DNA from: Leisingera aquaemixtae
Lineage (GTDB): Bacteria > Pseudomonadota > Alphaproteobacteria > Rhodobacterales > Rhodobacteraceae
Direction: 5' to 3'
NCBI RefSeq assembly: GCF_019801145.1
Contig: NZ_JAHVJQ010000004.1
Coordinates: 124,001-188,000 of the forward strand
DNA length: 64,000 nucleotides
In this document: in pieces, positions 59,215 to 61,833 of the stretch
Layout: each line of letters begins with the position of its first letter
Numbering within the stretch: the stretch's first letter is position 1
Notes under the pieces: model-generated
The model's input: only the letters and a program-made list of their open reading frames with translations
Told to the model about the DNA's origin: nothing
Databases searched by the model: none
Made by a program: the position numbers and the translations under genes

Positions 59215-59387
59215 GCAAGGTGCCGCCCCTTGGGGCGGAGAATTGGGAAGCTGGTGAAATTCCGGCACTGCCCCCGCAACGGTGACCCCGGGCAAGGCAT
59301 GGCAAAAACCACTGAGGCCAATGGTTTCGGGAAGGTGCCAGGCCCCGCCGCCGAATGGCCCCGGGACAGTCCGGAAACCAGCCTTGC
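59215..59387 (+). ncRNA. Cobalamin (B12) riboswitch aptamer upstream of gbcA
   Basis: All the conserved blocks are in order. P1 pairs GCAAGG (59215-59220) with CCTTGC (59382-59387). The core has GGGAAGCTGGTGAAATTCCGG followed by CACTGCCCCCGCAACGGTGA (read in two overlapping parts), then CCACTGAGGCCAATGG, CGGGAAGG and the B12 box AGTCCGGAAACCAGCC (59369-59384). The strand and position (120 bases before the gbcA ATG) make gbcA the target. Known examples bind adenosyl- or methylcobalamin and shut off expression. Confidence 0.92.
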
Positions 59388-59398
59388 CCCGAAAACGT

Positions 59399-59499
59399 CA
59401 ACCGCGGGCGGCGGCGGGGCGGTTGCAGGCGCGTGGCCTGCGATCTCTCCATCCATGCCCGCAGCCAAGCCAACCTGCCGCGGGGATGCGGCAAAGGAG
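59399..59499 (+). promoter_or_regulatory. Presumed expression platform of the cobalamin riboswitch
   Basis: Three perfect hairpins follow the aptamer: CAACCGC / GCGGTTG (59399-59425), CAGGC-GCGTG-GCCTG (59426-59440) and TGCCGC-GGGGAT-GCGGCA (59476-59493). The last ends at the base before the ribosome site AAGGAG (59494-59499). No T tract is present, so control is more likely at translation than by intrinsic termination. Confidence 0.6.
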
Positions 59500-59507
59500 A
59501 GAAGCAG

Positions 59508-60743
59508 ATGCTTCACGACAGCGAAATTCTGGCCAAACTGGTGGCCCGTCAGAAAAACTATTCCCTGGAGCAGGCGTTTTACACCGATCCGGGCGTGCTG
59601 GATCTGGACATGCGCCAGATTTTCTACCGCGAGTGGCTGTTTGCCATTCCCGCCTGCGAGATCCCGAAGGCGGGCAATTTCGTGACCCATCAGGTCGGCG
59701 CTTACAACGTCATCATCGTGCGCGGCACCGATGGCGAGGTGCGTGCGTTCCACAATGCCTGCCGCCACCGCGGTTCTGTTGTGTGCAAGGCCAAGAAGGG
59801 CAACTCGCCCAAGCTGGTCTGCCCCTACCACCAGTGGACCTATGAGCTGGACGGCTCGCTGTTGTGGGCGCGCGACATGGGGCCGGAATTCGATGCCTCC
59901 AAACATGGGCTGAAGCCGGTGCATTGCCGCGACCTGGCCGGTCTGATCTACATCTGCCTGGCGGATGAGGCGCCGGACTTCGACGCTTTTGCCGCGGTGG
60001 CGCGCCCCTATCTGGAGCCGCACGACCTGGGCAACGCCAAGGTCGCCTATGAAAGCTCGATCATCGAGAACGGCAACTGGAAGCTGGTCTGGGAGAACAA
60101 CCGCGAGTGCTATCACTGCGGCGGCAACCACCCGTCGCTGTGCCGGACCTTCCCGGAAGATCCGTCCGTCACTGGTGTCGAGGGCGGTGAGACCCCGCCG
60201 CACCTGCAGAAGCATTTCGACCGGATCGAGGCGGCGGGCGTGCCGGCCCAGTTCCAGATCGACGCGCGCGGCCAGTACCGGGTGGCGCGGATGCCGCTGA
60301 ATGAGGGCGCCGAGAGCTATACCATGGACGGCAAGGCGGCTGTCGCCAAGAAGCTGGGCCGAGTGCCGTTTGCCGATGCGGGCACGCTGCTGAAGTTCCA
60401 CTATCCGACTACCTGGAACCACTTCCTGCCGGATCATTCCATCGTGTTCCGGGTGACGCCGATCAGCCCGACCGAAACCGAAGTTACCACCAAATGGCTG
60501 GTGCACAAGGATGCGGTCGAGGGCCAGGATTACGACCTGAAGCGGCTGACCGAGGTGTGGATCGCCACCAACGACGAGGACCGCATCGTGGTGGAGGACA
60601 ACCAGAAGGGCATCAACTCGCCCGCCTATGAGCCCGGCCCCTATTCGGAAGTGCAGGAAAGCGGCGTCATCCAGTTCTCCAACTGGTATGCCGAGCATCT
60701 GACCCGCGCGCTGACCGGCCGCCACCTGATCGCGGCGGAGTAA
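59508..60743 (+). CDS. gbcA: Glycine betaine monooxygenase, Rieske oxygenase subunit
   Basis: A 411-residue ring-hydroxylating-type oxygenase that removes one methyl group from glycine betaine as formaldehyde, giving dimethylglycine. The Rieske cluster ligands are Cys85, His87, Cys105 and His108 (CRHRG...CPYHQW). The mononuclear iron site is in [20 protein letters not shown], with His203 and His208; this NNRECYHC block marks GbcA among related choline/stachydrine enzymes. The ATG at 59508 with AAGGAG before it is used, since an upstream in-frame ATG lies within the riboswitch. gbcB follows after four bases. Confidence 0.92.
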
Positions 60744-60747
60744 GCGC

Positions 60748-61833
60748 ATGGGACTGCAGGCCAACTTCGAGACGCTGGACGAGACGCTGGCGTGGAAAGA
60801 CGACGAGATGCTGGAATGCGTCTCGGTCGTGCCGGAAGCGCCGAACACCGCCACCTTCAGTTTCCGCGCGCCTTCGGGCGCGTGGTTCAAGTACCAGCCA
60901 GGCCAGTTCCTGACGCTGGAGCTGCCGGTGCCGGGCGGCACCGTCTGGCGGACCTACACCATCAGCTCCTCGCCGTCACGGCCGCTGTCGATCTCGGTGA
61001 CGGTGAAGGCGCAGGCGGACAGCATCGGCACCCGCTGGATGCTGGACCACCTGAAACCGGGGATGTTCCTCAAGGCTTCCGGCCCGGCAGGCGTGTTCAC
61101 CCTGCCGAAACGCCCGAACGGCAAGTTCCTGTTCATCTCCGCAGGTTCCGGCATCACGCCGAGCCTGTCGATGACACAGTACCTGTTCGACCGCGGCCAA
61201 TCGCCCGACGTCTGTTTCATCAACTGCGCCAAGCGCCCCAGCGAGATTATCGCGCGGCGCCAGCTGGAAGGCATGGCGGCGCGGGTGCCCGGCATCAAGC
61301 TGCACTTCGTGGTGGAAGAGGACGATCCCTATCAGGTCTGGACCGGCTACCGCGGCCAGCTGAACCAGATCATGCTGGGGATCATTGCCGGCGACTACCT
61401 GGAGCGCGAGGTCTACTGCTGCGGGCCGGATCCGTTCATGCAGGCGGTGCGCGACATGCTGAACGGCCTGGGCTTCGACATGGAGAACTACAACCAGGAA
61501 AGCTTTGGCGCGCCGGTGGAGACCGAGGCCGATGCGCCGGAGCTGGACGATGTGGTTCCGGAAGAGACCGCTGCCGCCGAGATCACCTTTGCCGCGTCGG
61601 GCGTGACCGCAAACTGCACCGAGACCGACACGGTGCTGGCGGTGGCCAAGGCGTCGGGCCTCAACATCCCGTCGGGCTGCACCTTCGGCATCTGCGGCAC
61701 CTGCAAGGTCAAGAAGACCGCAGGCGATGTGCATATGGTCCACAACGGCGGTATCTCGGAAGAGGACATCGAGGCGGGGTACATCCTGGCCTGCTGCTCC
61801 AACCCGATTGGCCGCGTCGAGGTCGCGATCTAA
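60748..61833 (+). CDS. gbcB: Glycine betaine monooxygenase, ferredoxin reductase subunit
   Basis: A 361-residue flavin/iron-sulfur reductase that feeds electrons from NAD(P)H to GbcA. Domains in order: FAD-binding (RTYT at 68-71 with SSSPS), NAD-binding (FISAGSGITPSLSM and YCCGPDPFMQAVRDML) and a C-terminal plant-type [2Fe-2S] ferredoxin with Cys311, Cys316, Cys319 and Cys349. Four bases separate it from gbcA and a terminator follows, so gbcAB is a two-gene unit under the riboswitch. Confidence 0.92.
   Translation: MGLQANFETLDETLAWKDDEMLECVSVVPEAPNTATFSFRAPSGAWFKYQPGQFLTLELPVPGGTVWRTYTISSSPSRPLSISVTVKAQADSIGTRWMLDHLKPGMFLKASGPAGVFTLPKRPNGKFLFISAGSGITPSLSMTQYLFDRGQSPDVCFINCAKRPSEIIARRQLEGMAARVPGIKLHFVVEEDDPYQVWTGYRGQLNQIMLGIIAGDYLEREVYCCGPDPFMQAVRDMLNGLGFDMENYNQESFGAPVETEADAPELDDVVPEETAAAEITFAASGVTANCTETDTVLAVAKASGLNIPSGCTFGICGTCKVKKTAGDVHMVHNGGISEEDIEAGYILACCSNPIGRVEVAI

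Follow-up and report, generated by a model that had tools for sequence, protein, structure and literature searches.

Why should a Rieske oxygenase, whose domains belong to a fold that does not use vitamin B12 (Pfam), be encoded behind a cobalamin riboswitch? The question is raised by a stretch of 64,000 nucleotides of Leisingera aquaemixtae DNA (assembly GCF_019801145.1, contig NZ_JAHVJQ010000004.1, positions 124,001 to 188,000; hereafter the window), in which such a riboswitch lies directly upstream of a two-gene operon for a Rieske oxygenase and its reductase. Our analysis of this locus and its relatives suggests that the operon probably provides a way to demethylate betaine without B12, as a back-up for the B12-dependent route, and is set by the supply of the vitamin.

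A cobalamin riboswitch precedes a two-gene Rieske operon

The RF00174 covariance model matched positions 59201..59400 of the plus strand over its full length (model positions 1-189 of 189; 105.8 bits, E 1.8e-25), well above the gathering score of 31.5, and the aptamer ends 107 bases before the ATG of the oxygenase (59400 to 59508). The initial annotation, which had described a complete aptamer in sense orientation at 59215-59387, 120 bases ahead of the gene, and had proposed a covariance model as a check, was thus essentially right on this point. At the gathering threshold this is the single riboswitch of the window, the two remaining matches being tRNAs, and the gene upstream of it (58393-58929) is oriented away.

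An alignment of 14 sequences, consisting of the window aptamer and 13 other switches before the same gene, had an invariant core, and 23 of the 44 predicted pairs carried compensatory changes, although the members had been found with the RF00174 family model and the alignment therefore leans towards the family; the core is also invariant across switch-bearing loci spanning 58-100% protein identity. The invariant core and the compensatory changes point to a cobalamin aptamer under selection. The whole genome (4.88 Mb) has five cobalamin riboswitches; beside or close to the other four are CobW and the cobalamin operon, CbtA, a metal-chelate-type ABC transporter and small frames without a name. 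With so few switches per genome, and with the same arrangement recurring in three alphaproteobacterial orders, a chance origin is unreasonable, and the riboswitch-operon arrangement is confirmed as real.

The oxygenase gene (59508..60743, plus strand; 411 amino acids; PF00355, PF00848) starts with an ATG at 59508 that has a good Shine-Dalgarno sequence, and the gene for the cognate reductase of the FAD/NAD/2Fe-2S type (60748..61833, plus strand; 361 amino acids; PF00970, PF00175, PF00111) begins 4 bases past the oxygenase stop.

Conservation of the pairing and gene neighbourhoods

The pairing of riboswitch and oxygenase, for which a survey of Rhodobacteraceae had been suggested at the outset, recurs among relatives. 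A family draw of 149 genomes (apparently one per genus) contained the gene in 30, with the switch before it in 11 (a count that leaves out the second gene copy of genome G091), and among the 80 closest loci of named genomes a full-length switch lay directly upstream in 27 and none in 53. The switch-bearing loci among these 80 include Ruegeria, Sulfitobacter, Shimia, Roseibium, Hoeflea, Rhizobium, Labrys and Pacificispira, so that the pairing spans Rhodobacterales, Hyphomicrobiales and Rhodospirillales; a draw of 299 genomes from across the phylum yielded seven more loci with the switch, of which six lie outside the family. Within the window's genus the gene was present in 20 of 21 genomes and the switch preceded all 19 fetched orthologues besides that of the window, one of them with a weaker match (81.6 bits), while one genome has a second gene copy, 67% identical, with no switch upstream. 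Plasmid-borne genes have the switch in Phaeobacter gallaeciensis, Ruegeria sp. TM1040 and Tritonibacter, and none was found before those of Paracoccus sp. MA and Sinorhizobium meliloti AK83. On a tree of 117 rows, a minimum of 12 gains or losses of the switch is needed. Weak partial riboswitch matches occur before the genes of two switch-less relatives (L109:5708-5779, 40.2 bits; L116:5803-5875, 21.6 bits) and are perhaps remnants of lost switches.

The neighbourhood survey covered 108 loci, 38 with the switch and 70 without. The reductase lies directly downstream of the oxygenase in all 38 switch-bearing loci, and the distance from the end of the aptamer to the aligned oxygenase start is 70-172 bases in the 27 switch-bearing named loci; the possibility that the switch is a relic of a gene lost between it and the operon was rejected on these grounds. 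Most switch-bearing copies form two-gene operons with no further partner: a regulator (LysR-type or TetR-like) or a flavoenzyme of the flavin mononucleotide (FMN) type was nearby in 43/70 switch-less loci as against 1/38 switch-bearing ones. As in the other comparisons of this survey, the Fisher values are too optimistic, since they ignore the kinship of the genomes. Pfam was used to check one FMN flavoenzyme and one LysR regulator, and neighbours of the TetR-like and sarcosine-oxidase-like kinds were identified by eye. The switch is thus found in the place of the dedicated regulator that many other copies have beside them. The nrdHIEF genes (class Ib, B12-independent ribonucleotide reductase) adjoin 8 of the 38 switch-bearing and 3 of the 70 switch-less loci, and have a cobalamin riboswitch of their own at L058:8510-8702, L061:6783-6982 and L063:4106-4293. 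The metH gene was nearby in 3/38 and 2/70 loci respectively, a difference that is not significant; at L063 a single switch is followed by oxygenase, reductase and a two-part metH in one row.

Identity and probable substrate of the oxygenase

The oxygenase is a betaine-demethylase-like group V (type Vb) Rieske enzyme that stands between GbcA and the stachydrine (proline betaine) demethylase Stc2 of S. meliloti. It has the Rieske ligands C85, H87, C105 and H108, the CxxC pair C201/C204 and an iron site of H203, H208 and D358 (His-His-Asp, the Asp as in Stc2), all of them marks of group Vb. N198 lies at the place of Tyr203 of the carnitine oxygenase CntA, as matched by motif spacing, and replacement of this Tyr by Asn is a criterion for group Vb (PMC7948474).

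The initial annotation had named the two genes gbcAB, after the glycine betaine monooxygenase that in Pseudomonas and Chromohalobacter likewise consists of a group Vb oxygenase and a reductase. Both subunits fell below the NCBI cut-offs, however (519 bits against 670 on the GbcA model NF058607 and 363 against 500 on the GbcB model NF058606), and the oxygenase is 69.4% identical to Stc2 and only 48-51% to 13 curated GbcA proteins, so the name was not confirmed, and gbcA is an unproven designation for this gene. NF058607 was itself rejected as a discriminator of glycine betaine and proline betaine enzymes: 0/20 further proteins reached 670, and as the Stc2 orthologue of S. meliloti AK83 scored 497.5 bits, near the 519 of the oxygenase, the model cannot separate the GbcA type from Stc2. 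The nearest solved relatives are Stc2 and PDB 3n0q (752 bits), titled a putative aromatic-ring hydroxylating dioxygenase, whose source we take to be the Rieske gene of Ruegeria sp. TM1040. That gene, on the megaplasmid of the strain (L089:7658-9221), is preceded by a cobalamin riboswitch.

In a tree of 142 proteins, built by a quick method and with approximate likelihood-ratio (SH-aLRT) values as its sole support, one branch consisted of the 13 curated GbcA proteins, while all 49 switch-bearing proteins, Stc2 and other switch-less copies fell on the other; the window oxygenase lies outside the Stc2 branch. A switch was found at none of the 13 curated GbcA loci and in none of the 20 rows of the Stc2 branch. 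Although fold and ligands are alike in the window oxygenase and Stc2, three columns separate the switch-bearing enzymes from the Stc2 branch (at least 85% in each), and the pattern E51/T222/K329 (numbering of the window oxygenase) occurs in 42/49 switch-bearing enzymes, 9/13 curated GbcA proteins and 0/20 members of the Stc2 branch. Thr222 aligns with Ala223 of Stc2, which according to a figure legend contacts the bound proline (PMC10952381). Because the three residues are GbcA-like and Thr222 replaces a ligand-contacting residue, glycine betaine is the likely substrate.

A Rieske enzyme acting on proline betaine or another quaternary amine, with another MttB-family enzyme (MtpB-like or other) as its B12-dependent counterpart, would preserve the same back-up logic. 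Such a substrate would agree with the closeness to Stc2, the missed GbcA cut-off, the 13 MttB paralogues with unassigned substrates in the genome (see below) and the different marker residues of the switch-bearing enzymes of the Rhodobacter branch, but it is less easily reconciled with Thr222, with the uniformly switch-less Stc2 branch and with the FMN flavoenzyme, as further N-demethylation would need, which adjoins switch-less copies and not switch-bearing ones. We regard it as unlikely.

The presumed B12-dependent counterpart and its co-occurrence with the switch

The proposal that the cell also owns a B12-dependent way to demethylate betaine was supported. In the L. aquaemixtae genome we found 13 genes of the MttB family and one PF02607 protein, which is MtgC-like, a corrinoid protein that stands alone, adjoins DUF1638 and lies near a homocysteine methyltransferase (MtgE-like). 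This is the arrangement of MtgC and MtgE reported for Phaeobacter and Ruegeria (PMC12478193). The MtgC-like protein is below the NCBI MtgC cut-offs (197 against 370 and 173 against 310), presumably because these models were built on other lineages. A classical MetH would have given a second PF02607 match, and as the PF02607 search of this genome returned one protein only, MetH is absent and the suggested routing of methyl groups to it does not apply here. After one of the MttB genes comes a flavoprotein that combines DAO and GCV_T domains in the manner of dimethylglycine or sarcosine dehydrogenases (L178). Matches of PYLIS_3 on an MttB gene were rejected as a sign of pyrrolysine and taken as likeness to mttB DNA; the frame has no internal stop.

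Elsewhere in the same genome, a second Rieske gene of GbcA-like kind (287 bits on NF058607) shares one row with an MttB-family gene and a flavoenzyme of the FMN/old yellow enzyme type (contig C12, L083:10188-15105). The row has no cobalamin riboswitch, and in it B12-dependent and oxygen-dependent demethylase-like enzymes adjoin each other. On contig C9 (L084:611-3469) another MttB-family gene is divergent from another Rieske oxygenase gene.

Co-occurrence was examined in 79 genomes, drawn from 50 of the 80 named loci (25 with and 25 without the switch) and further genomes, with duplicate contigs left out (L098, L104, L107, L119, L137 and L158; L147 shares its genome with L105). MtgC and MetH were told apart by PF02607 score and frame length (55-71 bits for MtgC-like proteins and 88-98 for MetH, with matches under 35 bits ignored), and outside the L. 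aquaemixtae genome the MtgC-like calls were made from the PF02607 domain alone. MtgC was found in 34/35 genomes with the switch and 32/44 without, and MttB (E up to 1e-80) in 35/35 and 33/44, with a median of 5 copies against 1; the Fisher values ignore the kinship of the genomes and are too optimistic. The occurrence of MtgC had been predicted beforehand for 16 genomes and agreed in 15, the exception being a Paracoccus (L153). In a last round 22 more switch-less genomes were searched, for MtgC only, and over 117 rows of the tree both switch and MtgC were present in 45, the switch only in 1, MtgC only in 49 and neither in 22. The strongest individual example comes from the Rhizobiaceae, at a syntenic locus where the switch occurs with MtgC and is missing without it: switch, MtgC and MttB were all found in Rhizobium leucaenae and Rhizobium sp. 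P38BS-XIX, whereas Rhizobium nepotum has none of the three and Agrobacterium leguminum lacks both switch and MtgC.

The same genomes bear on a different explanation, namely that the operon helps to make B12, betaine being turned into glycine for 5-aminolevulinate (ALA; Shemin route) and one-carbon units for corrin methylations, co-induced with the B12-synthesis genes. In industrial production, feeding with betaine increases the yield of B12 and reportedly stimulates ALA precursors (PMC8123684), and the L. aquaemixtae genome has CobH and CobJ, with its other riboswitches adjoining B12-supply genes. Precursor supply is nevertheless weakened by 6 of the 35 switch-bearing genomes (G114, G026, G149, G155, G161 and G162), which lack CobH and an above-cut-off CobJ and have kept the switch, and by CobH itself, which, unlike MtgC and MttB, is not associated with the switch (29/35 genomes with and 35/44 without, p 0.78). 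We consider this role quite improbable.

The leader and the mode of control

The leader between aptamer and start codon (59401..59507, plus strand) is a putative expression platform with GC-rich hairpins, strongly conserved across 20 leaders from the genus, counting that of the window. It has a hairpin at 59477-59492 and a pyrimidine stretch at 59443-59450 that is complementary to the Shine-Dalgarno sequence GGAGAG at 59496-59501. An intrinsic terminator was rejected as the expression platform, as no terminator-like site was found on the plus strand between 59400 and 59508. The conserved hairpins, the anti-Shine-Dalgarno-like pyrimidine stretch and the lack of a terminator make control of translation the likely mode. 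Clear sequestration of the Shine-Dalgarno sequence was not visible in minimum free energy folds of the leaders, and inspection by eye of 46 leaders showed no clear kissing-loop partner for the aptamer's L5 loop. Known cobalamin riboswitches are OFF switches, and from what is known of the class we infer that adenosylcobalamin is the ligand and that it turns the operon off. That the element is a cobalamin aptamer but no OFF switch at this locus (decayed, an ON switch, or serving mainly another function of the transcript) would suit the folds without a clear expression platform and the weak partial matches at L109 and L116, but is very improbable in view of the invariant core, the compensatory changes, the behaviour of the class and the position of the genome's other riboswitches beside B12-supply genes.

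A proposed vitamin control of betaine demethylation

The proposed back-up would operate as follows. When B12 is plentiful, adenosylcobalamin would bind the leader RNA and keep the oxygenase off, and betaine methyl groups would pass through the corrinoid route MtgB-MtgC-MtgD to tetrahydrofolate. When B12 is scarce, the leader would free the ribosome-binding site and the operon would come on, so that the Rieske oxygenase and its reductase take the methyl group off with O2 and NAD(P)H and release it as formaldehyde. The oxygenase route may thereby leave what little MtgC-bound cobalamin remains to the synthesis of methionine, for which L. aquaemixtae, lacking MetH, would rely on this same MtgC. 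The interpretation given in the initial annotation thus survives in part, with the riboswitch, its orientation and the B12-dependent route supported, the gbcAB name not supported as given and the MetH routing not applicable to this genome. We lean, with some reserve, towards the more general proposal that in three orders an O2-using betaine demethylase under vitamin control stands in for MtgBCD, with the methyl group either kept on folate or lost as formaldehyde and the shared MtgC corrinoid freed for methionine.

Several observations weigh against this account. MtgC without the switch is common, although the switch without MtgC is rare, so that MtgC does not predict the switch: it was present in 14 of the other 17 switch-less genomes that lay outside the prediction, and in 49 of 71 switch-less tips of the tree. 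One switch-bearing genome (G118, 84% complete) showed MetH and no MtgC. Phylogenetically independent pairs were few (about 3.6 agreeing, 0.2 disagreeing and 6.2 without a difference; median p 0.25) in a test that leaves out L149 (a metagenome-assembled genome with no PF02607 match), plasmid rows, curated GbcA rows and L226-L229 and counts genomes with two gene copies twice; the association of switch and MtgC is thus supported in its direction and by the prediction, but not by the phylogenetic significance test. As regards the substrate, the seven switch-bearing enzymes without the E/T/K residues all belong to the Rhodobacter branch, and the same residues also occur in 12/80 switch-less rows other than GbcA. 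Finally, in genome G092 (L058:11549-16070) the Rieske operon with its switch is directly followed by a two-part metH, for a B12-dependent enzyme, that has a cobalamin riboswitch of its own. Repression of such an enzyme by B12 would be odd, and a plain isozyme rule leaves this switch unexplained.

The closest precedents are the cobalamin riboswitches on metE and class I ribonucleotide reductase, where the same RNA class precedes a B12-free enzyme in a cell that also owns the B12-dependent counterpart, and 'isozymes of B12-dependent enzymes' are a recognised target class of cobalamin riboswitches (PMC3766115, PMC9600662). Here, by contrast, a Rieske N-demethylase that serves the catabolism of an osmolyte takes the part of the B12-free enzyme, and the presumed counterpart is the multi-protein methyltransferase MtgBCD. 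In Ruegeria pomeroyi the MtgBCDE-type system demethylates glycine betaine and makes methionine, and the MtgBCD route has recently been proposed as a major ocean path of betaine demethylation (PMC12478193). MtgBCDE is unrelated to the window oxygenase; it requires cobalamin, and with it the methyl group stays on tetrahydrofolate. The main text of PMC12478193 names GbcAB as an alternative, and its one mention of 'riboswitch' is the title of a cited glycine-riboswitch work. No report of a cobalamin riboswitch paired with a Rieske betaine demethylase was found in the open-licence literature, although the pairing could be listed in the supplement of PMC3766115, a survey that took in 15 Rhodobacterales and 15 Rhizobiales.

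If the proposal is correct, it would add a new enzyme pair to the short list of B12-dependent and B12-independent isozymes under riboswitch control, as a third kind besides methionine synthase and ribonucleotide reductase. The supply of B12, often from neighbours, would then set the route by which a major osmolyte is broken down and decide between keeping and oxidising its methyl groups. The proposal also provides a lead to the function of 3n0q, a solved structure with none assigned, and culturable strains of Phaeobacter and Ruegeria would allow the idea to be tested.

Flanking genes and a further riboswitch

On its far side the operon is followed by rpiB and then by a DUF5928 gene in the opposite orientation. 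On contig C5 of the same genome (L086:8396-9129) a small cysteine-containing protein with no NCBIfam match, which we take to be DUF1636-like, is encoded behind another cobalamin riboswitch.

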